DNA from: Oceaniglobus roseus
Lineage (GTDB): Bacteria > Pseudomonadota > Alphaproteobacteria > Rhodobacterales > Rhodobacteraceae
Direction of reading: 5' to 3'
NCBI RefSeq assembly: GCF_002869745.1
Contig: NZ_PNOS01000020.1
Location: 1-64,000 of the forward strand
Length of the DNA stretch: 64,000 nt
Shown one piece after another: positions 1-13,792 of this stretch (the first letter of the stretch is position 1; the number at the start of each line of letters is the position of its first letter). The notes beneath the pieces are model-generated. The model made no database searches, was not told the origin of the DNA, and worked only from the letters and a program-made list of their open reading frames with translations. The translations under genes were made by a program, and so were the position numbers.

Positions 1-596
1 AAGAGCCGCGGCCAGCGCCCGGTCAGCCGGTGCCCGGCGTCGGCAAGGGCCGCCAGCAGCGCGGGCCGCGTGGCGACGGCCGCGCCGATCAGCGCCAGCA
101 CCGTGACCGGCACCCCACCGGCGATTCCCGTGGCCGAGAGCGACAGCGCGAGGGCCAGCAGCAGGCCCATGGCGGCCAGATCCCCGGCGCGGTCCATCAG
201 CACCAGGGGCGCGGTGCGCTCGAAGCTCCAGCCGGTGTCGCGGTAGAGCCAGCGCATCCGCACCAGCTCGCCTACCCGGCCGGGGGTGACGGACATGGCG
301 AAGCCGCCGAGGAAGTGCAGGAGGTTCCGCCGAAGTCCCGTGCCAAGCCCCAGCCGCCGCGCGAAGAGGTGCCAGCGCAGGCCGCGCAGCAGGTAGTTGG
401 CGAGGCTCAGGGCCAGCAGCACGATGATCTGCCAGGGGCGGATGCGCGCGATCTGCCGGGCGACCTCGGACCAGCCCGTGGCGCTGCCGAGCCCGACGAG
501 GCCGACCAGCATCAGCGCCAGCAGGCCGCCCAGCAGCAGGCGGTCGCGCCGGATGTTGCGCCGTCGGGGCGCGGGAGAGGGGGCTGACTCGATCAT
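1..596 (-). CDS. LPG-synthase-type transmembrane protein (partial, C-terminus outside window)
   Basis: The leftward frame opens at the ATG ending at 596 and runs off the window after about 198 codons. After a basic N-terminus (about residues 11-17) there is a membrane segment, a second hydrophobic segment around residues 55-65, and the conserved loop TPGRVGELVR typical of the lysylphosphatidylglycerol synthase transmembrane-region family (PF03706, UPF0104). Members of this family include the membrane part of MprF and flippase-like or glycolipid-associated proteins; many are uncharacterised. It lies 97 bases downstream of the cyclic-nucleotide-binding gene and probably ends the glycosyltransferase/ABC operon, which suggests a lipid-linked substrate. 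The soluble domain that would mark a true MprF is not visible, so the activity is not assigned. Confidence 0.8.
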   Translation of the reverse strand, partial: MIESAPSPAPRRRNIRRDRLLLGGLLALMLVGLVGLGSATGWSEVARQIARIRPWQIIVLLALSLANYLLRGLRWHLFARRLGLGTGLRRNLLHFLGGFAMSVTPGRVGELVRMRWLYRDTGWSFERTAPLVLMDRAGDLAAMGLLLALALSLSATGIAGGVPVTVLALIGAAVATRPALLAALADAGHRLTGRWPRL

Positions 597-693
597 TGCC
601 CGACCGCTAGAGGAGCATTGGGGCAATACTATGAAACTGTTTCCGGATTCGGAACGCCCCCCGGCACCCCCGGCGCTTCGGGGCCGCCCGGAC

Positions 694-1119
694 CTAGCAG
701 AGGGTGGCGTTCATCCGTTCGCCGAGCAGCCGGATCGTCTGCGCGGTGGAATGCGGGCAGTCCGCCACCAGCCGCATGTAGCAGTCGCGGTTGACGCGCA
801 GCGCCACGACCTCGGTCTTGGCGGTGACGCTGGCGATGCGGGGGCGTTCGCACAGCAGCGCGGATTCGCCGATCACGTCCCGCTCTCCGATCAGGCCGCT
901 GACGGTGCTGCCGACCCCGGCTGGCGCGCTGACCTCGGCTTCGCCGCAGAGGATGACATAGGCGACGCTGGACATCTCGCCTTCGCGGGCGATGGGATCG
1001 CCGGGCGCGAAATGCACCCGCTCCGACGTGAAGGCGAGCATCCGGAGCTTCTGGACGGGCATCCGCGCGAACAGCGGAACGGCCTTCAGGATCTGGACTT
1101 CGTCTTTCATGCACATCAT
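694..1119 (-). CDS. stand-alone cyclic-nucleotide-binding domain protein
   Basis: This 141-residue protein is almost entirely one CRP/PKA-type cNMP-binding beta-roll, with no helix-turn-helix or kinase domain. The phosphate-binding cassette is complete: IGESALLCERPRIASV (about residues 83-98) has the ribose-contacting Glu85 and the phosphate-contacting Arg94, nine residues apart as in PKA. It is therefore likely to bind cAMP or cGMP. The start is the first of three close ATGs because AAGGAGG lies 7 bases upstream. It follows the degenerate ABC protein by 31 bases, so the two are probably co-transcribed and may form a complex in which the cNMP domain acts as a sensor. That partnership is inferred from the gene order only. 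Confidence 0.88.
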   Translation of the reverse strand: MMCMKDEVQILKAVPLFARMPVQKLRMLAFTSERVHFAPGDPIAREGEMSSVAYVILCGEAEVSAPAGVGSTVSGLIGERDVIGESALLCERPRIASVTAKTEVVALRVNRDCYMRLVADCPHSTAQTIRLLGERMNATLC

Positions 1120-1150
1120 GACGGACCCTCCTTGCGAAGACCCCGAGCGG

Positions 1151-3877
1151 TCAGGCCGAGGCCTCTACGCCTTCAGTCCTAGCACTTTCGCGTGAGAATG
1201 TCTCGGAATAATGATCCGAGACGACCGAGCCGTTCTCGAACCGCACGATCCGGTCGAAGCCGTCGACGTCCGCCTCGTCCGCCGTGACCCAGACGATGCC
1301 CGGCCGGTCGGGGCGTCCGGCCAGGAAATCCACCACGTCCACGCGGATTTTCCGGCGCGCCGCGGCGTCGAGCCCGGTCAGCGGCTGATTCAGGATATAG
1401 TAGTCCGAGGGCCGGATCATCGCGCGGGCCAGGTTCAGCTTCTGCCGCTGCACGGCCTGCAACCGGCGGCCGGCGGGCCCGATCCCGTAGCACAGGCCGA
1501 TGGTCTGCACGTCGCGGCACAGCGCGGGGTCGCGGCCCAGAACCTCGCTCGCCACCGTGCGGACCTTGCGCTCGGCATCGCTCTGGAAGGTGTCGACCTT
1601 GCCGAACAGCAGGTTCTCCAGCAGCGTGGCCGAGCGGATGTAGCGGCCCGTCTCGTAGACCTCGATCAGCGGTTTCAGCGCATCCGGCATCCCCGCGTGG
1701 ATCTTTCCGCGCACCTCGACGATCCGCCGCATCAGCGCCTCGTCCAGCACCCCGAAACGGAACCAGCGTTCGTTGTAGTAGAAGGCGAGGCGCATCAGCG
1801 CGATCCGGTCGGCATCGGCGGCGGTGGCGAAGGACTTGCCCTCCAGCCGGTGCAGCAGGGCGGTGTAATCCGGGATCTCCTCGGGGCGCATCAGCGTCAT
1901 GCGCTGGAAGAAGACGTGGTCGGGCGGCATGTCGCGGAACAGGTCCACCGTGATCTCGGCGATGGCGCGGCCCATGGCGAACAGGTCCTCGCCGATGCCG
2001 TCGCTGAAGATCAGCTCGCGGAAGAAGCGGCTGCGCACGATCCGGCGCAGCGAATCCTCCTCGCCGGTCAGCTGGCCGAACAGGAGGTTCTCGCCCACCG
2101 TGGCGCCGCTGTTGTAGCAGCCCGGCCGGAACTGCGACACCATGGCGCCGAGCCCCGCCTCGCGCAGCGCCGCGGCCAGGGGCGCGCGCAGGGCGACGAT
2201 CCGCTCGGCCAGGGTCTGCCGCTGCGCCTCGTCCAGCGTGGTGTGCAGCGCCATGTCCAGCACGTCGTCGGACAGGCCGACGCAGTCGAACACCGCCATC
2301 ACCGAGGACAGCAGATCGGCCTCCCCGGTGTGGCGGGCGATCGCGGCCTCGTCGATCCAGCTGTCGTTCAGGTCGAAGACAGGGTTGCCCGAAAGCCCGG
2401 CCTCCATCACCTCCCAGTCGCGCAGCCTGCGCGCCCGCCCGGTATAGACGCGCGGCACCCGGGGTTCGTTCTTCAGTCCATACAGCAGGTTGTCCTCGAG
2501 CGTGCCGTCGAACAGGTGCCCCTCGCCCGAAGCATAGGAGATCTTCCGCCCCACCAGCGACTCCGGCAGGTGCAGCAGGTCGTGCTCTCCGGCGAGAATG
2601 TTGCCGGAGGTCGGCCAGACAAGCCGGCCGAGCGCCTCGGCCAATGCCCCGCCGCCGCTGCCCGAGGGGCCGAGGAAGGCCACCCGCTCGCCCGTCTCGA
2701 TCTTCAGCGACACCTGGTCCAGCACCAGGCTGCCGCTGTCGTCCACCAGCGACACGTTGCGCACGCTCAGCGGATGGCCGAACGCGGCGTCGGGATCGGG
2801 CGTGGGAGACTGCAGGTCGGCGTCGATCAGCACGTCGGATTCGAACTGCTCGACCACCTGTTCATATTTCACCTGCACGTCCTGGCGGGTCAGGTCCCAG
2901 TCGATCAGCTCCTTTAGGGGGCCCGGCAGCTCCTTGTAGGCGTTGATGACCGCGACCAGCTGGCCGACGTCCAGCGTGCCCTTGATCGTCAGGTAGCCGC
3001 CGAAGCTGTAGAACAGGAACGGCGTCAACTGGGCCAGGAAGTTGTTCAGGAACTTAACGAGGAACTTCCACTGGTAGATGTCGTAGCGGATGCGGAAGAT
3101 CCGGCTGAGCCTGTGGGCGATGTCCGCCCGCTCGAAGTTCGTGGTGTCGTGGGCGCGGATCGTGTCGATGCCGGTCACGATGTCGCTGACCCGGCCCGCC
3201 AGCTGGCGCGCGGTCAGCTGCCGTTCGCGGCCGAGCACGATCAGCCGCTGGCGCATCTTCGGGATCACCAGCACCTGTACCATGGCCACGCCGAAGGTCA
3301 GCATCCCGAGCCAGAAATGCTGGATGAAGATGAACAGAAGCGCCGTCAGCGCCTGCCCGCCCAGAAGCGCGGGCTGCACAAAGGCGTCGGCGGTGAAGCC
3401 GCCCAGCGGCTCGACCTCGTCCTTCACCATGCTGGAGATCTCGCCCGGTTTCAGCGCCTTAAGCCGCGCGGGCGGAAAGCGCAGGATCCGGTCCACCAGC
3501 GCGAAGCGGATGCGGCGCAGCAGCCGTTCGCCGAGGCGGCCCTTGTAGGTGTTGATGTAGAACTTGAACAGGCCGTTGACGATCACCAGCGCGAGGAAGG
3601 CCATGCTGAGTGCCAGCAGCATCGGCAGCCGTTCCAGCGGAATGCCCTGGAACAGCTCGACCTGGCCGAGCCACGGCAGGTCGAGGGTGATGTTGCCGAA
3701 GGTCTGGGTGGCGTCCGGCGTCTCGAAGCCCTCGCCCTGGATCGGGCCGTTGACGATCAGCTTGGGCAGGTTGAACGCCATGTAGTAGGGAATCATCGAC
3801 GCCCCGACCACCAGCAGGATCCAGAGCTGCTGGCGCTTCGTGTTCGTCCAGATGTAGCGGGAAAGGATCGGCTCCAT
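1151..3877 (-). CDS. ABC exporter-like membrane protein with degenerate nucleotide-binding domain
   Basis: This 908-residue protein has an ABC type-I exporter membrane region (about residues 15-330, with segments near 20-40, 85-105, 170-205 and 275-300) followed by an NBD-like region starting near 370. The NBD keeps the fold motifs but not the chemistry. Walker A is GPSGSGGGA (403-411), with the lysine replaced by glycine. The signature is LQAVQ (806-810). Walker B ends ILNQP (828-832), Asp to Asn and Glu to Gln. The H-loop histidine position reads VTAD (864-867). About 340 residues separate Walker A from the signature, and the T..(E/D)NLL(Y/F)G segment occurs three times, at 459, 593 and 751. 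ATP hydrolysis is unlikely. The uninterrupted frame argues for a functional, non-hydrolysing protein. It precedes the cNMP-domain gene in the operon. Confidence 0.85.
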   Translation of the reverse strand: MEPILSRYIWTNTKRQQLWILLVVGASMIPYYMAFNLPKLIVNGPIQGEGFETPDATQTFGNITLDLPWLGQVELFQGIPLERLPMLLALSMAFLALVIVNGLFKFYINTYKGRLGERLLRRIRFALVDRILRFPPARLKALKPGEISSMVKDEVEPLGGFTADAFVQPALLGGQALTALLFIFIQHFWLGMLTFGVAMVQVLVIPKMRQRLIVLGRERQLTARQLAGRVSDIVTGIDTIRAHDTTNFERADIAHRLSRIFRIRYDIYQWKFLVKFLNNFLAQLTPFLFYSFGGYLTIKGTLDVGQLVAVINAYKELPGPLKELIDWDLTRQDVQVKYEQVVEQFESDVLIDADLQSPTPDPDAAFGHPLSVRNVSLVDDSGSLVLDQVSLKIETGERVAFLGPSGSGGGALAEALGRLVWPTSGNILAGEHDLLHLPESLVGRKISYASGEGHLFDGTLEDNLLYGLKNEPRVPRVYTGRARRLRDWEVMEAGLSGNPVFDLNDSWIDEAAIARHTGEADLLSSVMAVFDCVGLSDDVLDMALHTTLDEAQRQTLAERIVALRAPLAAALREAGLGAMVSQFRPGCYNSGATVGENLLFGQLTGEEDSLRRIVRSRFFRELIFSDGIGEDLFAMGRAIAEITVDLFRDMPPDHVFFQRMTLMRPEEIPDYTALLHRLEGKSFATAADADRIALMRLAFYYNERWFRFGVLDEALMRRIVEVRGKIHAGMPDALKPLIEVYETGRYIRSATLLENLLFGKVDTFQSDAERKVRTVASEVLGRDPALCRDVQTIGLCYGIGPAGRRLQAVQRQKLNLARAMIRPSDYYILNQPLTGLDAAARRKIRVDVVDFLAGRPDRPGIVWVTADEADVDGFDRIVRFENGSVVSDHYSETFSRESARTEGVEASA

Positions 3878-3961
3878 CGACGGCGGCCTTCAACTTGAAA
3901 CTCTTCAGCACCCGCAACGCAGAGGCCGGAACGTCGTGGGGCGCAACGCGGCTATGTCATG

Positions 3962-5101
3962 TCATGTGGCGAGAGTTGTAAGGAGATGTGCCGATCGTGC
4001 CGCTCCGTCAAGGCGCAAACGGCCCGAAACATCTGCCGGGACGCTGTCCATCGCCTGCTGCATGGCTCGGGCCAGCGTTTCGCCGCCGATCTCGGCCTCG
4101 GGCAGCATCCGGACGCGTCCCATCGCCTGAAGCCGGGCGGCGCGCTCGGTCTGTTCCGTCTCGCCGCCGGTGGCGAAGGGCACCAGCACCGCGCGGCATC
4201 CGGCCTGGAGGATGTCGCAGACCGTGTTGTAGCCGGCCTGCGAGACCGAGAGGCGGCAGGCGGCGAGCAGGGCGGGGAAATCGGCGCGGAAGCGCACCAC
4301 CTCGACCCCGTCGCGGGCCTGCGCCGAGAGGCGGGTGAAGTCCCGCTCGGGCAGGTTCGGCCCCGAGATCACGCACCACCGCTTCAGCGCGGGAAGCCGG
4401 GGCGCGGCGTCGAGCGCGGCCCCGATCAGCGCCGCCCCCACCGCGCCGCCGCCTGCCGAGACGACGACATCGTAGCGGTCGGGCGAGGGTTCGGGCGGAG
4501 GTGCCGCGACGAGACCGGTATAGGCCACCCGGTCGGCGATGGCGGCGGCGTGGGGGAAGGTGTCTTCCAGCCGCACGAAGCCGGGATCGCCGTGGACCAG
4601 CACCCGGTCGAAGTGCCGCTGCACGAGCTCCGCCGTCTCGGCGTCGCGCTCGGGCTTCCTCGCCTGGAGGATGTCGCGGACCGAGCTGACGAGGGCGGGG
4701 CGCGGTTTCGTCGCCTCGATGGCCTCGATCAGCGGCAGAAGCTCGAACCGGACCTGGCGGCGGCCGAAGGGAAAGGCCTCCAGCACCACCACGTCGGGGC
4801 GGAACCCGCGGAAGGCCTCCAGCAGGCGCGCCGCCCGGTCGCCGCGGAAGCTGTCGTCGAGCGGCTGGCCGGCCGCGTCGACCAGGGTCGAGAATCCGTC
4901 CTCGGCGATGGCGATGGGCGGCAGCGCGACGTGGCCGATCCCCTCGCCCGGGAAGCCTTTCACGGGCAGGCCGCCGGTGACCACGCAGACCTCGGCCCCC
5001 TCCGCCGCCAGCGCCCCGGCGATGCGGCTGGCCCGGGCAAGGTGGCCGATCCCCAGCAGGTGCTGGACGTAGAACAGGATCCGGGGGGCGGGGCGGGTCA
5101 T
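3962..5101 (-). CDS. COG4671-like glycosyltransferase (MurG/GT28-type fold)
   Basis: A 379-residue GT-B-type protein. The N-terminus carries the glycine-rich loop GIGHLARASRIAGALAAEG, and the C-terminal half has SQAGYNTVCDILQAG followed by a basic/acidic segment TEQTERAARL (about residues 305-335), as in nucleotide-sugar-binding MurG and COG4671 proteins. It has no signal peptide or membrane segment, so it should act in the cytoplasm or at the inner face of the membrane. The ATG overlaps the TGA of the upstream GT4 gene (ATGA), indicating translational coupling. It is a probable paralogue of the 402-residue transferase two genes upstream. Donor and acceptor cannot be told from the sequence. 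Confidence 0.85.
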   Translation of the reverse strand: MTRPAPRILFYVQHLLGIGHLARASRIAGALAAEGAEVCVVTGGLPVKGFPGEGIGHVALPPIAIAEDGFSTLVDAAGQPLDDSFRGDRAARLLEAFRGFRPDVVVLEAFPFGRRQVRFELLPLIEAIEATKPRPALVSSVRDILQARKPERDAETAELVQRHFDRVLVHGDPGFVRLEDTFPHAAAIADRVAYTGLVAAPPPEPSPDRYDVVVSAGGGAVGAALIGAALDAAPRLPALKRWCVISGPNLPERDFTRLSAQARDGVEVVRFRADFPALLAACRLSVSQAGYNTVCDILQAGCRAVLVPFATGGETEQTERAARLQAMGRVRMLPEAEIGGETLARAMQQAMDSVPADVSGRLRLDGAARSAHLLTTLAT

Positions 5102-6357
5102 GGGCGATCTCCGACGCCTTCGGCAAAGAGGTCCGCCAGTTGGCGGATGCTGTCGTGGAAGTCGAACTCCGCCCGCACCTGCGCCTCGGCCGCCTGACCC
5201 AGGGTGCGGCGGCGGGCGGGATCGCTGATCGCCTGCGCCAGCGCGGCGGACAGGGCGGCGACGTCTTCCGGCGGTACGACCCATGCGTTCTGGCCGTCGC
5301 GGAACAGGTCGCCGATGCCCGAGACGTCGGTGGTGACGCAGGCCAGCCCCTGGCTTGCCGCCTCGACCAGCACGTTGGGCAGCCCGTCGCGGTCGCCGTC
5401 GCCCGCCACCCGGCAGGCCAGCGCGAAGAGATCGGCCGCGCGATAGGCCTCCAGCACCCCCGTCTGGTCCATCGCCCCGCGCCACTCGACCCGCTCCGCG
5501 ATGCCAAGTTCGTCCGCCAGCGCCTGCATCGCCTTCGCCTCGGTCCCCGCACCGATATGGACGAAGCGCCAGTTCAGCCCCTCCGGCAGCGCGGCCAGCG
5601 CCCGGAGCAGGAGGTCATACCCCTTCTTCGGCACCGCCCGCCCGACGCTCAGCACCTCCACCGGCGCGCCGGTGCCGTCCTTCGGCGGGCGCGGCGCGTC
5701 CGGGGTCGGGAAGCGGTGCAGGTCGAGACCATGGTGGCTCAGCACCACCTTGCCTGGCGCCTCCGCGAGCCCCGCGAGGTGATCCCGCCCCACGGCGGTG
5801 CAGGTGACGCACCAGGCGGCGCCGTCCAGTTTCCGCGCGAGATCCCGGTCGGGCGAGGTCCAGATGTCCTTCGCATGGGCCGAGACGGAATAGGGCACGC
5901 CGGTCATCAGGCTGGCGTATTGCGCGACCGACCCCGGCGTGTGGATGAAATGGGCGTAGATCCAGTCGCCATCCTTCGGCCACTCGGCCGCCAGCACCGA
6001 CGCCTGTCCGAAGCGGCGGACGCGGTTGCGGGAAAGGTCGCGCGAAAGGTCGCCGAGGAAGGCCGACAGCGCGGCGCGGAAGCCGGGCCGCCGGAGGCTG
6101 CGCCAGAGCCCGCGCAGCACACGCAGGGGTTCGTGGTGCAGGTACTCGGGCAGGTAGGTGACGGGCGCGCGGATCTCGTCGTGGACCGGGTGGCGGCGGG
6201 TGTCGGTCGGGTGGCGCATGGAGATCAGCGACAGCGCGAAGCCCGCCCGCTCGAGCCCGTAGAGCTCCTGCGCGATGAAGGTCTCGGACAGGCGGGGATA
6301 GCCCTTGAGGATCACGACGATCCGTTTCGGCCCCCGCGGCCCCGCGTCCCCCGCCAT
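5098..6357 (-). CDS. GT4-family glycosyltransferase
   Basis: A 419-residue protein of the WcaL/colanic-acid-type GT4 group. The N-terminal domain begins with KGYPRLSETFIAQELYGLER, the hallmark of this group. The C-terminal nucleotide-sugar domain has DGLPNVLVEAASQGLACV (EX7E region) and ends near residue 410. I chose the ATG at 6357 because it overlaps the upstream stop as TAATG; an in-frame ATG at 6405 would add 16 residues and overlap the upstream gene by 49 bases. It sits between two COG4671-like transferases with overlapping ends on both sides, so the three enzymes are probably made together to assemble one glycan. Substrates are unknown. Confidence 0.87.
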   Translation of the reverse strand: MAGDAGPRGPKRIVVILKGYPRLSETFIAQELYGLERAGFALSLISMRHPTDTRRHPVHDEIRAPVTYLPEYLHHEPLRVLRGLWRSLRRPGFRAALSAFLGDLSRDLSRNRVRRFGQASVLAAEWPKDGDWIYAHFIHTPGSVAQYASLMTGVPYSVSAHAKDIWTSPDRDLARKLDGAAWCVTCTAVGRDHLAGLAEAPGKVVLSHHGLDLHRFPTPDAPRPPKDGTGAPVEVLSVGRAVPKKGYDLLLRALAALPEGLNWRFVHIGAGTEAKAMQALADELGIAERVEWRGAMDQTGVLEAYRAADLFALACRVAGDGDRDGLPNVLVEAASQGLACVTTDVSGIGDLFRDGQNAWVVPPEDVAALSAALAQAISDPARRRTLGQAAEAQVRAEFDFHDSIRQLADLFAEGVGDRP

Positions 6358-7565
6358 TACTCTCCGGCCACCGCCGCGGGGCGGCTTCCGCGGGCCGAAA
6401 GCCATTCGCCGATCATCCGCGAGATGTTGTCGAGCCCGTCCATCTGCACCGCGCCCCCCGCCTGCGACGGCGGCGCGCGGAAGGGCAGGGCGCGCAGCAT
6501 CCCGGCAAGGCGGGGCGCATCCCGGGCCTCGTCCGGGGTCAGCATGTCGACCAGCCCCATCGCCTCAGCCCGGCGGGTGCGGATCAGCTGCTCTTCCCGC
6601 GGGGTGACACGGGGCAGGATCAGGGCCGGCTTGTCGAAGGACAGGATCTCGCAATAGGTGTTGTAGCCGCCCATCGCCACCACCGCCTGCGCGCCCGCCA
6701 TCAGCTCTTCAAGCCGGGAGTCGAAGTGGATCAGCTCGATCCGCTCCAGCCCTTCGGCCGCCTTCTCCAGCGTCGCCCGCTGTTCTGCGGGCATGTAGGG
6801 CCCCAGCACGACCAGCGCCTTGTGCGGCAGCTCCGGATCGGCGCGATAGGCCCCGAGCACCGCCGAAACCAGGTCGAACCCGTCGCCGCCGCCCCCGGTG
6901 GTGACGAGGATGTAATTGCCCTTGGGCCGGTTGTGGGAAGGGGCCGCGCTGTCGGCGCTGCGCTTGAGGAAGCCGGTATACTGCATCCGGTCGCGCACCG
7001 CCTGCGGCGCGTCGAGGCCGGTCAGCGGATCGTAGAAGTCGGGCGGGCCGTAGACCCAGACGTTGTCGTAGAAGCGGCCGATCTTGGTCAGCACGTCGTT
7101 GCGCGCCCACTCGGCCTCCAGCAGGTGCGGGGCGTCCATCACCTCGCGCAGGCCGAGGACCAGCCGCGTGCCCCGCGCCTTCAGGAAGGCGAGCGTGTCC
7201 TCGATCTCGCCCCGCAGGCCCATCGGCTCCTTGTCGGTGATGAAGATGTCGGGCTTGAAGGTCTCGGCGGTGTGGCGGATGATCGACCGGCGCATCGCCA
7301 GCGTGTCCCGGACGTCGATATGCTCGGACAGCGAGGTGTATTCGCCGTTGCGAAGCTTGATGACGCTCGGAATCTTCACGAAATCCACGCGGGCGCGATA
7401 GTCGAAGGTGCCCGCGATGCTGGCGCCCGAGACGATCAGGACGGTGACGCCGCTGAACCGCTCGACAAGGGCATGGGCGATGGTGCGGCAGCGCCTGAGA
7501 TGGCCCAGCCCGAAGGTGTCGTGCGAGTACATCAGGACGCGGGCGTCGTCGAACCATGTCTTCAT
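6357..7565 (-). CDS. COG4671-like glycosyltransferase
   Basis: A 402-residue predicted glycosyltransferase. The N-terminal motif is DTFGLGHLRRCRTIAHAL, a middle stretch has NYILVTTGGGGDG (about residues 213-225), and the C-terminal motif GGYNTYCEILSFDKPALILP is followed by PREEQLIRTRRAEAMG, matching the GT28/MurG-type donor site. There is no leader or membrane segment. It starts 54 bases after the oligopeptide-type permease gene and overlaps the next transferase by one base. It thus links the importer genes to the glycosyltransferase genes on one strand. It resembles the 379-residue enzyme at 3962-5101 in motif layout, which suggests duplication. Confidence 0.86.
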   Translation of the reverse strand: MKTWFDDARVLMYSHDTFGLGHLRRCRTIAHALVERFSGVTVLIVSGASIAGTFDYRARVDFVKIPSVIKLRNGEYTSLSEHIDVRDTLAMRRSIIRHTAETFKPDIFITDKEPMGLRGEIEDTLAFLKARGTRLVLGLREVMDAPHLLEAEWARNDVLTKIGRFYDNVWVYGPPDFYDPLTGLDAPQAVRDRMQYTGFLKRSADSAAPSHNRPKGNYILVTTGGGGDGFDLVSAVLGAYRADPELPHKALVVLGPYMPAEQRATLEKAAEGLERIELIHFDSRLEELMAGAQAVVAMGGYNTYCEILSFDKPALILPRVTPREEQLIRTRRAEAMGLVDMLTPDEARDAPRLAGMLRALPFRAPPSQAGGAVQMDGLDNISRMIGEWLSARGSRPAAVAGE

Positions 7566-7619
7566 CGTCCGGCCTTTCGTCTCTCGTGCCGCCGGACGTG
7601 CCGGGGATCGGTTTTCGGG

Positions 7620-8795
7620 CTACTTATAGGGGTCGGCGGCGTCGCGCAAACCGTCACCCAGAAAGTTGAACGCAAGTATCACCAGAATCACGGGCACTAT
7701 CGGAAACAGCAGCCACGGAAAGATCGCGATGACGTTCACGTTCCGCGCCTCGGTCAGCAGGATCCCCCAGCTGGTGATCGGCGGGCGCAGGCCGAGGCCG
7801 AGGAAGCTGAGCGCGGTCTCGCCGAGGATCATGCCGGGCACCGTCAGCGTGGCTGAGGCGATCAGGTGCGACATGAAGCCGGGCACGAGATGGCGCGAGA
7901 TGATCCGCCCACTCTTCGCCCCCATGACCTGCGCCGCGGTGACGTAATCCTCTTCGCGGAGCGAGAACAGCTTGGATCTTACGGCCCGCGCGAGGCCGGT
8001 CCAGTCCAGGAGCCCGAGGATCATGGTGATCCCGAGATAGACGAAGATTGGGTTCCATGTGACGGGGATGATCGCCGCCATCGCCATCCAGAGCGGGATC
8101 GACGGGATCGACTGCAAGACCTCGGTGATCCGCGTCAGCGCCATGTCGATCCAGCCGCCGTGGTATCCGGCCAGCCCGCCGATCACGATCCCGAGGATGA
8201 AGCTGACCGCCACGCCGAACAGCCCGATCGTCAGCGAGATCCGCGCGCCATAGAGGATGCGCGACAGCTGGTCCCGCCCCAGCCGGTCGGTGCCGAGCAG
8301 GAACATCTCGCCGCCCTCGGCCGGGCAGACGAGGTGCAGGTCGGCGTCAATGAGCCCCCAGAACCGGTAGCGGTCGCCATGGCAGAAGAAGCGCAGCGGC
8401 TGCACCTCGCCCGGTGCGTCGGTGTAGACCCGGCGCAGCGTCTCCATGTTCAGCTCCATCGACCGGCCATAGACGAAGGGGCCGACGAACTCGCCCTCGT
8501 GGAACAGGTGGATGCGCTGCGGCGGCTCGTAGATCGCGTCGACGTTGCGGGTGTGGAGGTTGTAGGGGGCCAGGAACTCGGTGATCAGGATGCTGGCGTA
8601 CATCAGCAGCAGGAACACCCCCGACACCACCGCCAGCCGGTGCCGGCGGAACTTGTACCAGATCATGTGCCATTGCGAGGTGGTCAGGACCCCGCTCGCC
8701 TCCTCGGCCTGGCGCGCGGCGGCATCGGGGTCGAACGGCGCGTCCGAGACGTAGTGCGGCAGCGGCGCGCCGGGCGGGGGCAGGGGCATGCTCAT
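7620..8795 (-). CDS. family 5 ABC importer permease (OppC/DppC/YejE type)
   Basis: A 391-residue inner-membrane permease. A soluble N-terminus of about 45 residues precedes the first membrane helix (IWYKFRRHRLAVVSG). A periplasmic insert of roughly 100 residues follows, ending in FLLGTDRLGRDQLSRILYG, the standard OppC signature. The later helices contain the EAA loop EEDYVTAAQVMGAKSGRII that contacts the ATPase. It ends with a short DAADPYK tail like other OppC proteins. The start codon overlaps the stop of the partner permease (ATGA). Family members move oligopeptides, microcin C-like molecules or oligosaccharides. Neighbouring glycosyltransferases make a glycan or glycopeptide substrate worth considering, but this is inference. 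Confidence 0.9.
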   Translation of the reverse strand: MSMPLPPPGAPLPHYVSDAPFDPDAAARQAEEASGVLTTSQWHMIWYKFRRHRLAVVSGVFLLLMYASILITEFLAPYNLHTRNVDAIYEPPQRIHLFHEGEFVGPFVYGRSMELNMETLRRVYTDAPGEVQPLRFFCHGDRYRFWGLIDADLHLVCPAEGGEMFLLGTDRLGRDQLSRILYGARISLTIGLFGVAVSFILGIVIGGLAGYHGGWIDMALTRITEVLQSIPSIPLWMAMAAIIPVTWNPIFVYLGITMILGLLDWTGLARAVRSKLFSLREEDYVTAAQVMGAKSGRIISRHLVPGFMSHLIASATLTVPGMILGETALSFLGLGLRPPITSWGILLTEARNVNVIAIFPWLLFPIVPVILVILAFNFLGDGLRDAADPYK

Positions 8796-9796
8796 TTCCG
8801 CGCCTCCCCGCCAAGACGGATCCGCGGGTCGAGGAAGGCGAGGGCGATGTCGCTGACCAGCATCCCGATCACCGTGAGGAAGGCGAGGAACATCAGGAAC
8901 GACCCGGCAAGATACATGTCCTGGCTTTGCAGCGCGTTGATCAGCATTGGCCCCGTGGTTTCAAGCGACAGCACGATCGCCGTCACCTCGGCCCCGGAGA
9001 TGATCGAGGGCAGGATCGAGCCGATGTCGGAGATGAAGAAGTTCAGCGCCATCCTCAGCGGGTACTTCCGCAGCAGCGGCCCCGGCGCCATCCCCTTGGC
9101 CCGCGCCGTGGTGACGTACTGCTTGTGCAGCTCGTCCAGCAGGTTGGCGCGAAGCCGCCGGATCATCGCAGCGGTCCCGGCGGTGCCGATGATGATGACC
9201 GGGATCCAGATGTGCGACAGAATCGAGCGGAACTTCTCCCAGCTCATCGGCTCGCCCAGGAACTTCTGGTCCATCAGGTGGCCGATGGAGACGCCGAACC
9301 ACTGGTTGGCGAAATACATCAGGATCACCGCCAGCATGAAGTTCGGCACCGAGATGCCGATCATCCCCACCAGCGTCAGCCCGTAGTCGCCCCAGGAATA
9401 CTGGTGCGTGGCCGAGTAGATGCCGATGGGAAAGGCGATCAGCCAGGTGAAGACGATGGTGACGAAGGAGACGAGGATCGTCAGCCACAGCCGGTCGCCG
9501 ACGACCTCGGACACCGGCAGGCGGTATTCGAAGGAATAGCCGAAGTCGCCGTGCAGCATCCCCCCGAGCCAGTAGAAATACCGCACCACCGCCGGTTCGT
9601 CGAAATGGTACTTGGTCCGCAGCTGCTCGATCTCGGCCAGGTCGGCGGATTCACCCATGGCCTGCAACTCGGTGATGTAGCTTTCGAAATAGTCGCCCGG
9701 CGGCAGTTCAATGATGGTGAAGACCAGCGCCGAGATCAGCAGCAGCGTCGGCACCATCACCGCCAGCCGCCAGAGGATGTAGCGCGCGAGGCTCAT
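8792..9796 (-). CDS. family 5 ABC importer permease (OppB/DppB/YejB type)
   Basis: A 334-residue integral membrane protein with six predicted helices, the first at residues 8-30 (YILWRLAVMVPTLLLISALV). The periplasmic region between helices 1 and 2 is about 80 residues long. The EAA-type cytoplasmic loop is near residues 210-235 (DELHKQYVTTARAKGMAPG). The arrangement matches the B-type permease of peptide/nickel/oligosaccharide importers. Both ends overlap neighbours by ATGA, so it is translated in series with the binding-protein gene upstream and the C-type permease downstream. Confidence 0.9.
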   Translation of the reverse strand: MSLARYILWRLAVMVPTLLLISALVFTIIELPPGDYFESYITELQAMGESADLAEIEQLRTKYHFDEPAVVRYFYWLGGMLHGDFGYSFEYRLPVSEVVGDRLWLTILVSFVTIVFTWLIAFPIGIYSATHQYSWGDYGLTLVGMIGISVPNFMLAVILMYFANQWFGVSIGHLMDQKFLGEPMSWEKFRSILSHIWIPVIIIGTAGTAAMIRRLRANLLDELHKQYVTTARAKGMAPGPLLRKYPLRMALNFFISDIGSILPSIISGAEVTAIVLSLETTGPMLINALQSQDMYLAGSFLMFLAFLTVIGMLVSDIALAFLDPRIRLGGEARK

Positions 9797-11694
9797 CCGC
9801 GCCTCCCGTCCCAGAAGGTGTCAGGCATGTAGGCCCCGAGATAGCTGGTGGGATCGTAGCCCAGCAGGCCCTCGTCCGGCACGTTCTTCAGCCAGTCCGC
9901 CCGCACCAGCGGCGCCAGCGCGCCGTTCACGGTGCCGATGGTGAACACCTGGTCGGCGCGGATCGCCAGCATCCGGTGCCAGATCTCCGCCCGCTCGTCC
10001 GTCGAGGCGCTGCGCCGCCACTGCCGGAGCAGCTGCATCAGGTCGACCACCGGCGCGAGGTCCGGTGGCACGCCGCTGCTTTCGGCCGACATGAAGAACA
10101 TCCCCCAGTTCGGCCACTGGAGCTGCGCGTCGTCCGTGGGCGCCAGCTCCAGCGGCGGCATGTCCGCCGTCGGCACGGCATTGTCCAGCCCGATGCCCAC
10201 CGACATCAGAAGCCCGCCGCCCATGGCGCGGCTTCTCAGCAGTTCGCGCTGCGAGGTGCGGGTGTAGATCGCCACGCCGACGTCGAAGAAGGTGTCGTGG
10301 ATCAGCTCCAGGATATCGGTCTCGAGCGTGCTTTCCCCGGCCGACTCCACCACGATCTGCACCGGCCGGCCGTCCGGCAGCTTGCGCATCCCGAAGCGGT
10401 CGCGCTTGTCGAGCCCGGCGAGATCCAGCAGCGCGTTCGCCTTCTCGGGGTCGAAGGCGGCATAGGCGCTCGCATATTCCTCGCGGTAGAGCGGGCTTTC
10501 CGGCAGCACCGTGTCGGCACTCTCCCGCGCCAGCCCGAAGAACAGCGCCTTGTTGATCTCCTCGCGGTCCACGGCCAGCGACAGGCCGCGGCGGAAGTTC
10601 GCGTCCTGCAATACCGCCCGCCACACCGGATCGGCGCAGTTGAGGTTCGGCAGCAGCGCCATCTTCGAGCCCTGGGGCTGCTTCCAGAGGTCTACCTTCA
10701 CCGGCTGCACCCGCTCGGCCCGCTTCAGGAGCGTGTAGTCGTTGAAGCTGAGGCCCATGTACTGCAAGTCCGCCTCGCCCGTCGCCGCCTTGGCGGGGAT
10801 GATCTCGGAGGACGAGATGTTCAGCAGCACCCGGTCGATGTAGGGCAGCTGCGTGCCCGCCTCGTCGACCCGGTGGAAATAGGGGTTCCGCTCGAACACG
10901 AACTGTTCGGCCGGGGGGGAGGTGCGGGGCCGCCAGGGCTCGGTCGTGGGCAGGTCGGGGTTTTCCGGGCGGTTCTGGCGCGACTGCTTCTGGAACAGCG
11001 AGGTCCAGTCGTCGACGCGGAACTGCTCGATGTATTCCTCCAGCTTCTCCGCCGTCTGGTAGGCCGGGTGGAACTGCTTCATGTAGACGGAAGGCAGGAA
11101 CAGCTTCAGCGGCGAGGGCTTGGCGAGGTTCGGCAGGAAATCCGGCACCGGCGTCGCCCAGGCATAGCGCACCGTCACCTCGTCCAGAACCTCGAACGTC
11201 GGCCCGTCGCCCGCCACCAGCATCTCGGCCGGGATGCCGCCCGGCGACAGCTCCTCGTCGTGGTAGACGTCTTCCCAGACGAAGCGGAAATCCTCGCTGG
11301 TCAACGGATTGCCGTCGGACCAGCGGTGGCCTTCGCGCAGGCGGAAGGTGAAGATGCGGCCCTCCTCCACCTCGCAGCTTTCCAGGATGTCGGGCTGCAG
11401 CACCAGGTCGGGGCCGTAGCCGACCAGCCGGGCATAGCCATTGATCGGCATGATCCGGATGTCGCGCTGCCCGCCGATCAGGGTGCGCACGGTCCCGCCC
11501 TGCACCCCCGGGGTCCGGCCGAGCGACCCCATGTCGATCACCCGCGGCACCTTCGGCAGCCGTTCGTTCACCGGCGGCAGGCGGCCCGCGGCCACGTCGG
11601 CGGCGAAGACCTCGGGCTCCTGCGGGGCGGCGCGCAAGGTGCCGGGCAGGAAGGCCGCGCCCATCAGCGCGAGGGTCCGGCGGCGGGAGATCAT
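9793..11694 (-). CDS. extracellular solute-binding protein, family 5
   Basis: A 633-residue periplasmic binding protein, longer than typical DppA/OppA (about 530) and closer in size to YejA or rhizobial AgpA. The leader begins [18 protein letters not shown] and has a twin-arginine-like SRRRTLAL core, so Tat export is plausible. Family 5 landmarks are present: [20 protein letters not shown] (about residue 120) and [20 protein letters not shown] in the second half. The ATG overlaps the stop of the ATPase gene (ATGA). Its ligand should define what the importer brings in. Peptide, microcin-like and oligosaccharide ligands are all compatible with the family. Confidence 0.88.
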
Positions 11695-13583
11695 GCGCGC
11701 AGCTCCGCCGCGTCGGCGCCGGTCCTCGCCAGCACGAAATGCCCGTTCCCGAGATCCGCGGGCGCCAGCGTGCCGCCGTCGCCCTCGCGGAAGGCGGGCG
11801 CCCACATCTTGCGCGCCTCGCGGCTCGACAGCGCGGCGGTGGCGAAGTCGAGCGGGCGGCCGAGGTCGGGATAGGGCACTGCGGCCAGCAGGGCGCGGGT
11901 ATAGGGATGGACGGGGGCCGACATCAGCACCTCGACCGGGGCCAACTCCACGATCCGTCCCGCCCACATCACCGCCACCCGGTCGGCCATGTAGTTCACC
12001 ACGGCGAGGTTGTGGGAGATGAAGAGATAGGTCAGCCCGATGTCGCGCTGAAGGTCTTTCAGGAGGTTCAGCACCTGCGCCTGCACCGACACGTCCAGCG
12101 CCGACACCGGCTCGTCGCAGATGATGAGCTCGGGCGACAGCGCCAGCGCCCGCGCGATCCCGATCCGCTGCCGCTGCCCGCCCGAGAAGGAATGCGGATA
12201 GCGGCGCAGGGCGTTCTCCTCCAGCCCCACGGCCTTCAGCAGCACCCGCGCCGCCTCGACCCGCTCGGCCCTGGTGCCGAGGTCGTGGATCTCCATCGGC
12301 TCCAGCAGGATGTTGCCCACGCTCATCCGGGGCGACAGCGAGGACACCGGATCCTGGAAGATCATCTGGATCCGCCGTTGCAGGGTGCGCAGCTCCGCCC
12401 CCTCGGCGCGCAGCACGTCGATCCGCTGCGCCCCGTTGTCGAACGTCACCTCGCCCGCGTCGGCCGACACGGCCCGCATCAGCATCTTCGACACCGTCGT
12501 CTTGCCGCAGCCGGACTCGCCCACCAGCCCGAGGCACTCGCCCCGGCGGATGTCGAAGCCCACGTCGTCCACCGCGGGGGCAGGGGGCGGGGCGGAGGAC
12601 AGCCAGCCGTCGCCCTTGCGGCTGCCGAAGGTCTTGGAGAGCCCGCGCACCTTCAGCAGCACCTCCGGCGCCTTGCCTGTCGGCGCAGCCACCTTCCCCG
12701 GCATCTTCGCCAGCAGTCCGCCACCCAGCGTCTCGATCTCGCGCAGGGGTTTCAGGCGTTCGGACCGGCCCATGTCGAAATGCGGGATCGCCCCGAGCAG
12801 CCCCTTCAGATAGGCGTGGGTCGGGTTGCAGAAGATCGCCTCGACCGGCCCCGCCTCCATGATCCTGCCGTGATAGATCACCACCACCTCGTCGGCGCTG
12901 TTCGCCACCACGCCAAGGTCGTGGGTGATCAGCAGCACCGCCATGCCGAGCTGTCGCTGGAGGTCGCCGAGCAGTTTCATGATCTGCGCCTGGATCGTCA
13001 CGTCCAGCGCCGTCGTCGGCTCGTCCGCGATCAGCAGCGACGGGCGGCAGATCAGCGCCATGGCGATCATCGCCCGCTGCCGCATCCCGCCCGACAGTTC
13101 GAACGGATACTTGTCGAACACCTTTCCGGGCTGGTCGAAGCCGACGAGGCGCAGCATCTCCTCGGTCTCGCGGCGTCGGGCGGCGGCGGGGCCGGGTTCG
13201 TGGATCTTCAGCACCTCCGACACCTGGTCGCCGATGGTGTGCAGCGGCGAGAACGAGGTCATCGGCTCCTGGAAGATCTGGCCGATCCGGGCGCCGCGGA
13301 TCGCCCGCGCCTCGATCCCGTCGCGGGGCAGCTTCAGGATGTCGACCGGCCCGGCGCCGTCGTCGAACAGGATCCGGCCGCTGACCTTCGCCGCGGCAGG
13401 GGCGAGGCCCATGATCGCCTGGCCGATCACCGACTTGCCCGACCCCGACTCGCCCACCAGCGCCGTGACCTTGCCGGGCAGGATCCGGAGGCTCGCGTCG
13501 TCCACCGCGGTCAGCATGCCGCGCATGAGGGGGAAGGTGACGCTCAGCCCCTCGATCCGCAGCAGATCCTTGCCAGCAGCCAT
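11691..13583 (-). CDS. ABC importer ATPase with two fused nucleotide-binding domains (YejF/DppDF type)
   Basis: A 630-residue protein with two complete ABC domains in tandem, like YejF or a DppD-DppF fusion. Domain 1 (about 8-270) has Walker A GESGSGKS (44-51), a degenerate-free signature [10 protein letters not shown] and Walker [13 protein letters not shown]. Domain 2 (about 320-600) has [24 protein letters not shown] and [12 protein letters not shown]. Both domains look catalytically competent, in contrast to the pseudo-ABC protein further down the operon. The ATG at 13583 is preceded by GGGAG at a good distance; upstream in-frame ATGs lack this. It is the first gene of the leftward run, facing a divergent GT32-type gene. 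Confidence 0.9.
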
Positions 13584-13792
13584 CCGTTCTCCCGCGCGGC
13601 GCGCGCTCACCCCGTCTGTCGCGACCTTACCCATTCGGGCGGGCCTGTCCATCGCCAAGCCGCCGCAGCCGACGCGCCGCCCGCGAACTGCCGCAAGGTC
13701 GCGCAATGCGGCGTGTCGGGGGCTGCGCCCCGGGCCGCGCGGGGATATGAGGGACGGCAGGACACCGGCGCATCCGGCAGCGAGGCAGCGCG
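13584..13792. promoter_or_regulatory. divergent intergenic region of the ABC/glycosyltransferase locus
   Basis: This 209-base gap separates the first gene of the long leftward operon from the rightward GT32-type gene, so it should hold promoters for both. I see no clear sigma-70 boxes, operators or strong hairpins in it; the assignment rests on gene orientation only. Confidence 0.4.

Follow-up and report, generated by a model that had tools for sequence, protein, structure and literature searches.

An ABC exporter-fold protein with a lost ATPase site adjoins a cyclic-nucleotide-binding protein in Alphaproteobacteria

The locus and its lost ATPase site

We analysed a 64,000-nucleotide stretch of the Oceaniglobus roseus genome (contig NZ_PNOS01000020.1, positions 1 to 64,000; hereafter the window). 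It carries a gene for a 908-residue protein of the ATP-binding cassette (ABC) exporter fold, here termed pseudo-ABC, next to a gene for a cyclic-nucleotide-binding (CNB) protein, here termed the partner. An earlier note made from the sequence had described the nucleotide-binding domain (NBD) of the exporter as catalytically dead and partly triplicated, and had offered a nucleotide sensor, a gated channel or a scaffold as possible roles. The frame is indeed intact over 908 codons and lies on the minus strand, which that note omitted. Both genes and the elements of pseudo-ABC are located as follows:

1151–3877, minus strand: pseudo-ABC exporter, 908 amino acids (ATG at 3877, stop at 1151–1153), assigned with Pfam, AlphaFold2 and Foldseek
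2843–3877, minus strand: transmembrane part, residues 1–345, the most conserved part of the protein
2648–2671, minus strand: Walker A remnant GPSGSGGG, residues 403–410, with Lys changed to Gly409 and Ser/Thr to Gly410
2444–2596, minus strand: unit 1, the normal Q-loop module, residues 428–478, with Gln changed to Gly451; matches nine canonical exporters with E 8.8e-9 (hhalign)
1598–2470, minus strand: insert, residues 470–760, inside the helical part of the NBD
2054–2224, minus strand: unit 2, an extra copy of the module, residues 552–608 (profile–profile comparison)
1580–1750, minus strand: unit 3, the copy leading into the signature, residues 710–766 (profile–profile comparison)
1448–1462, minus strand: degenerate signature LQAVQ, residues 806–810, with Gln810 in 78 of 78 relatives
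1385–1402, minus strand: Walker B remnant, residues 826–831, with Asn830 and Gln831
1280–1282, minus strand: H-loop position, Ala866, with His in none of 78 relatives
694–1119, minus strand: CNB partner, 141 amino acids (PF00027, E 1.5e-14; no other Pfam domain)

Pseudo-ABC consists of a type IV ABC exporter membrane domain and an NBD of the ABC ATPase fold. Pfam assigned ABC_membrane (PF00664) to residues 66–311 with E 2e-21, while just the N-terminal portion of ABC_tran (PF00005) was matched (residues 386–486, E 2.5e-11). Residues 710–900 matched nine canonical exporters by profile comparison (E 3.7e-16), and no CNB or peptidase domain was found by Pfam within the 908 residues. Modelling with AlphaFold2 from a 40-sequence alignment of the gene family gave a mean predicted local distance difference test (pLDDT) score of 82.4 and a predicted TM-score (pTM) of 0.76. 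The top Foldseek matches of the model were ABC exporters, with TmrAB first and MsbA and PCAT1 among the others (E 1e-14 to 1e-13). Superposition of the whole chain was poor (TM-score by query length ~0.34, root-mean-square deviation 15–17), as would be expected of so long a chain holding a large insert. The best NCBIfam match, MsbA_lipidA (TIGR02203; E 6e-41), scored 140.5 bits and stayed below its cut-off of 602 bits. A PADLOC match to mad3 (E 1.6e-8), which covers 75 residues near the C-terminus, was taken as generic.

None of the six catalytic residues considered (Walker A Lys and Ser/Thr, Q-loop Gln, Walker B Asp and Glu, H-loop His) is present in the window copy. Gly409, Asn830, Gln831, the LQAVQ signature and Ala866 all stand where the earlier note had placed them, and its statement that the ATPase chemistry is gone held; Gly410 and Gly451 are two further losses that it did not mention. 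Judged by these residues, pseudo-ABC is related to the type IV ABC exporter superfamily but is not an active member of it.

A scan of a species-level genome collection yielded at least 426 stretches encoding a relative. The best 80 of these (hereafter the orthologue loci), whose best segments are 44–61% identical to the window copy, were taken for comparison, and residues were counted in 78 full-length orthologues after dropping two that were cut by contig ends. The Walker A Lys position held Ala (46), Gly (28), Ser (3) or Thr (1), and the residue after it was Glu or Asp in 75 of 78, compared with Gly in the window copy. At Walker B, Asn took the place of Asp in all 78, and the Glu position held Arg (64), Gln (6), Lys (5), Glu (2) or Ala (1). 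Asn830 is thus fixed among these relatives, and Gln831, which the earlier note had paired with it, is shared by six.

We further compared 23 more distant members, termed the core (20 hand-picked from the 98 genomes matched by the insert profile described below, plus 3 others), and 14 members from the window's own family. Of the 23 core members, 15 kept the Walker A Lys, 14 the Walker B Glu, 8 the H-loop His and 3 the Walker B Asp; the residue after the Lys was Glu or Asp in 19 and Ser or Thr in none. In these proteins an acidic residue seems to have shifted position, out of Walker B and into the P-loop. Residues 409–410 of the core mostly form a pair of Lys/Arg and Glu/Asp, and the Walker B Asp is often Asn or Ser. 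In the window's own family, the Lys was absent from all 14 members (Arg in 12) and the Walker B Asp was present in 10. Across the 115 relatives (78 close orthologues, 23 core and 14 own-family members), Ser or Thr at position 410 was never observed, at most four of the six catalytic residues were kept, and 81 members kept none. Intact Walker motifs in orthologues, the result that the earlier note had named as contradicting it, were likewise not found among these 115. Catalytic residues apparently began to be lost at the base of the family, with further losses following in the clade of the window.

The same counts bear on the proposal of the earlier note that the changes are of a kind that permits binding without hydrolysis. 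The P-loop Lys is gone from 78 of 78 close relatives and is followed by an acid in 75, which argues against ATP binding in this clade. A protein that binds ATP without hydrolysing it, serving as a sensor of ATP or ADP, would fit the NBD fold, which is predicted with good confidence, and the Walker A Lys in 15 of the 23 core relatives; given the residues of the window's clade, however, we consider it very unlikely.

Pseudo-ABC could also pair with an active half-exporter encoded elsewhere and be the degenerate side, energised by that half, of a heterodimer of the TmrAB or TAP kind. Exporters of this kind normally contain degenerate sites (excerpt of PMC12038006), and TmrAB was the top Foldseek match. 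Here, however, the losses extend to Walker A, Walker B and the signature, and an intact canonical exporter was linked in 1 of 80 orthologue loci, in none of 20 core loci (flanks ~3–4 kb) and in 1 of 18 others. An unlinked active half is possible; the rarity of a linked one makes the heterodimer less likely, and we regard it as rather improbable.

Triplicated Q-loop module, constraint and distribution

The motif T..[ED]NLL[YF]G, reported earlier at residues 459, 593 and 751, was found at all three. Profile–profile comparison showed the three segments to be related, which bears out the proposed internal duplication of part of the NBD. Units 2 and 3 scored 63.4 (E 4.4e-14), units 1 and 3 scored 29.6 (E 3.5e-6) and units 1 and 2 scored 25.4 (E 3.1e-5). 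The best of 300 control pairs of segments from the same alignment scored 19.6, so that none reached the weakest unit pair. Each unit was modelled by AlphaFold2 as helix, strand, helix, and the key Asn of repeats 1, 2 and 3 was kept in 77, 78 and 78 of the 78 orthologues and in 23, 23 and 23 of the 23 core members. Units 2 and 3 matched the nine canonical exporters weakly (20.5 and 22.3, with a control maximum of 19.6); the evidence for triplication therefore rests on the within-family comparisons, and an origin of units 2 and 3 from the canonical Q-loop module is suggestive only. The insert had no relative of solved structure by sequence (best E 0.23).

Conservation along the protein differed between its parts. 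In an alignment of 79 rows, 112 of 345 columns of the membrane part were invariant (mean pairwise identity 0.765), compared with 5 of 106, 16 of 280 and 11 of 140 columns in three parts of the NBD (0.53–0.57). Nine canonical exporters showed the opposite pattern, with 8 of 310 invariant columns in the membrane part (identity 0.325) and 19 of 105 and 35 of 125 in the NBD (0.47–0.59); as they span different orthologous groups, the two sets are comparable in direction only. By this comparison, constraint appears to have shifted away from the NBD and onto the membrane part.

Ratios of nonsynonymous to synonymous substitution rates (dN/dS) were calculated for four regions in 12 pairs of relatives, with several dS values saturated (near or above 1); ten pairs gave 0.00–0.22 and the remaining two 0.14–0.37 and 0.14–0.33. 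The window copy was left out because its nearest relatives are too distant. Loss of the catalytic residues might by itself suggest a decaying exporter gene, but the frame is open in 78 full-length relatives, Asn830 is fixed, the neighbouring genes are conserved and dN/dS stayed at or below 0.37 in all 12 pairs. We find decay hardly credible, in agreement with the earlier view of this copy: dead site and repeats are conserved in relatives although the ATPase residues are gone.

Used as a family profile, the insert gave matches in 98 of 289 genomes sampled from Alphaproteobacteria, spread over 73 of 224 genera. On a sample of 299 genomes of the phylum it gave 25 matches, all in Alphaproteobacteria. 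Two of the 80 orthologue loci belong to gammaproteobacterial metagenome-assembled genomes (Granulosicoccus-like) and may be contamination. A search of the order with the last 199 residues as query picked up generic exporters and so carried no information. Five genomes of the window's genus (one 75% complete) likewise gave generic exporter matches only (best E 3e-16 to 1e-11), so pseudo-ABC looks accessory in the genus; no foreign-DNA signature was seen in the base composition of window positions 1–13600. Several Sinorhizobium meliloti records name a family member "ABC transporter ATP-binding protein".

The cyclic-nucleotide-binding partner and neighbouring genes

The partner of the window carries the putative phosphate-binding residues Gly84, Glu85 and Arg94. 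Among its relatives this cassette kept Gly in 77 of 77, Glu in 74 and Arg in 77, and judged by these residues the site is intact and looks able to bind cAMP or cGMP. The protein is close to the CNB regions of PKG, PKA and SthK (E 3e-10 for SthK). The database name of the S. meliloti partner, Crp/Fnr transcription regulator, was rejected, as PF00027 stands alone in both the window and the S. meliloti copies and no helix-turn-helix was found in them.

Of the 80 orthologue loci, 77 contained a relative of the partner, which overlapped pseudo-ABC or lay at most 173 nt downstream of it in 76 and lay 4.4 kb downstream in one (L136). It was missing from three: in L155 and L156 the contig stops within the gene, and L114 has ~10 kb of downstream sequence. 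A stricter positional filter gave 74 loci, because three partner frames start far inside the upstream gene. The partner was also found in 19 of 20 core loci, fused in 2 and separate or overlapping in 17 (in L162 as a partial frame overlapping the ABC frame), with none nearby in L176. It was separate in all three distant loci L059–L061 and present with all 14 own-family members, being fused at the C-terminus in 13 and separate in L071. In a midpoint-rooted tree of 61 sequences, drawn without support values, fused members mostly formed one group with the separate L071 inside it; one to three fusion events are possible on this topology.

Several further frames were noted in these loci. The window's genome (G000) encodes a second, more distant relative on contig C30 (L065:7938–11081), ~31% identical and with a C-terminally fused cyclic-nucleotide domain. 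A 443-residue frame in L072 (9059–10387) comprises the membrane part only, had no partner in that locus and may be a remnant. In L063, L067 and L069, a conserved membrane-protein-like frame shares 4 to 40 bases with the end of the fused form.

The partner site is kept while the ATP site is lost, and the two proteins are linked or fused; together, these observations suggest that they work together, which is the basis of the mechanism proposed below.

Cyclic-nucleotide cyclases were searched with a profile grown from a cyclase-like gene of S. meliloti (PF00211, E 1.5e-5). Of the 80 orthologue loci, some of which have short flanks, 36 had a class III cyclase-like frame within ~10 kb, and so did 2 of 20 core loci (flanks ~3–4 kb) and 2 of 18 others. 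The fused members L174, L064 and L068 have such a frame upstream on the same strand, at a distance of 29, 598 and 656 nt, respectively. Class III cyclases are numerous in some rhizobia. The chance expectation is ~4% per locus for such a stretch, calculated from the mean of 11 genomes, 9 of which were picked for having a nearby cyclase, and with a detector different from that behind the count of 36. Those 36 loci are not independent, as 14 share one Mesorhizobium-type arrangement. The arrangement varies by group (upstream and overlapping, downstream, or on the opposite strand), which favours repeated linkage. L093 and L104 have cyclase-like frames within ~2.2 kb of pseudo-ABC, and their genomes hold two and one class III cyclase matches, respectively.

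The other genes around pseudo-ABC in the window are the following:

3–626, minus strand: flippase-like LPG_synthase_TM gene (PF03706, E 1.2e-25), after the partner and running off the contig end
3962–5101, minus strand: GT28-like glycosyltransferase (PF04101, E 1.1e-12; start chosen by eye), in 59 of 80 loci
5098–6405, minus strand: GT4 glycosyltransferase (PF00534, E 2.9e-33), in 60 of 80 loci
6357–7565, minus strand: second GT28-like glycosyltransferase (PF04101, E 1.1e-6), in 59 of 80 loci
7620–13583, minus strand: peptide-type ABC importer with two permeases, a substrate-binding protein and a double ATPase (outer start approximate)

Glycosyltransferase counts refer to blastp relatives within 9 kb, and a few of the GT28-like ones are paralogue cross-hits. 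The importer genes are 59–79% identical to S. meliloti importer genes and occurred within 9 kb in 34–50 of 80 loci, depending on the gene. With the truncated part of the LPG_synthase_TM gene as query, blastp gave no relative in any of the 80 orthologue loci. Additional genes of the S. meliloti locus, as annotated in CP140883.1, encode a nucleotide-sugar dehydrogenase, a polysaccharide lyase and an FkbM methyltransferase. Three glycosyltransferase groups were seen among 48 loci, of which 38 belong to the wider family and 10 are orthologue loci; the groups occurred in 23, 23 and 21 of them.

Three adjoining glycosyltransferases suggest that a glycan may be the cargo in this branch. Their linkage in 59–60 of 80 loci would also suit a membrane scaffold or receptor for glycosyltransferases that moves nothing, with the partner reporting the cyclic-nucleotide level; transport itself is a proposal here. 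A scaffold seems unlikely to us, however: the membrane part rather than the cytoplasmic part is the most constrained, and loci of fused members are absent from the three glycosyltransferase groups. That absence also makes the glycan link a property of the unfused branch.

Proposed mechanism and comparison with known systems

We consider it fairly probable that pseudo-ABC is a conserved ABC exporter-fold pseudo-ATPase and that a cyclic nucleotide, bound to the adjoining or fused partner, sets its conformation. It adjoins or is fused to a CNB protein in nearly all loci examined, which hints that a signal molecule, rather than ATP, works it; on the residue evidence, it probably does not use ATP. 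We assume that it is most likely a homodimer. The partner would dock on the cytoplasmic pseudo-NBD and bind cAMP or cGMP made by a cyclase, and the bound partner would switch the transmembrane part between two states. In the branch of the window, the membrane part may handle the glycan made by the three neighbouring glycosyltransferases, or its state may control that glycan. We infer control by a cyclic nucleotide from linkage, fusion and motifs.

A more specific form of this proposal, which we put forward tentatively, is an ABC-fold conduit or flippase that works without ATP and is opened, closed or driven by the cAMP- or cGMP-bound partner. The triplicated NBD would serve as the docking site, and the pair could represent a new class of second-messenger effector. 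A nucleotide sensor or a gated membrane protein, as suggested in the earlier note, is possible, although the likely sensor is the adjoining CNB protein, which that note did not mention.

Several observations weigh against the proposed mechanism. A profile search found no cyclase in the window, and of the two class III cyclase matches in its genome, neither lies there. The cassette of the window's partner reads RIASV, with Ile following the key Arg; 70 of 77 relatives carry Thr there, at a position that influences the choice between cAMP and cGMP. No partner gene lies near L114 or L176, and none of 15 fused-member loci occurs in the three glycosyltransferase groups (two of them with flanks of ~3 kb). 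Residual nucleotide binding may persist elsewhere in the family, as 15 of 23 core members keep the Lys and 14 the Walker B Glu, and 10 of the 14 members of the window's own family keep the Walker B Asp. Furthermore, CNB domains can bind other ligands: according to an excerpt of PMC10986499, that of HetC binds ppGpp and is not stabilised by cAMP.

Roughly a third of the sampled alphaproteobacterial genomes have a member of this family, including rhizobia, which are easy to manipulate. If the partner gates pseudo-ABC, bacteria would possess an ABC-fold membrane protein under second-messenger control, which could provide an output for class III cyclases, most of which, to our knowledge, lack known targets. 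The family also offers a natural test of what an ABC fold can do without ATP hydrolysis.

Among the matches listed in a search of open-access titles and the beginnings of abstracts, a scope that leaves subscription journals mostly outside, none described a pair of pseudo-ATPase exporter and CNB protein. Each part is a known fold, and the combination of a fixed pseudo-ATPase exporter with a CNB protein appears undescribed within that scope. A putative link of the family to SMb20813 of S. meliloti, termed the msbA homologue in an excerpt of PMC10945364, was set aside.

Pseudo-ABC has its membrane domain and NBD fold in common with MsbA-type (type IV) exporters such as TmrAB and PCAT1. Unlike them, it has no catalytic residue, an insert of ~290 residues with two extra Q-loop modules, and a partner CNB protein. 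HetC of Nostoc, a PCAT exporter, likewise joins an ABC exporter to a CNB-type domain, which is needed for HetC function; the excerpt of PMC10986499 describes a C39 peptidase in HetC, an ATPase residue that is essential, and a CNB domain at the N-terminus that binds ppGpp. Pseudo-ABC, by contrast, has a dead ATPase and a CNB domain that stands at the C-terminus or forms a protein of its own, which sets it apart from the HetC type. A 2007 survey of CNB domains lists a subgroup, AAA_Atpase, in which several members have an ABC-transporter-like membrane region and the phosphate-binding Arg is variable (excerpt of PMC2246266), whereas the partner described here has Arg in 77 of 77 relatives.

In the cyclic-nucleotide-gated channel SthK, a CNB domain also controls a membrane protein, but the membrane part of pseudo-ABC has the ABC exporter fold and is not a voltage-gated channel. 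MloK1 is a prokaryotic cyclic-nucleotide-gated channel as well. CFTR is an ABC exporter turned gated conduit and thus a precedent for a conduit of this fold; its gate is operated by ATP binding and phosphorylation, whereas for pseudo-ABC we propose a cyclic nucleotide.

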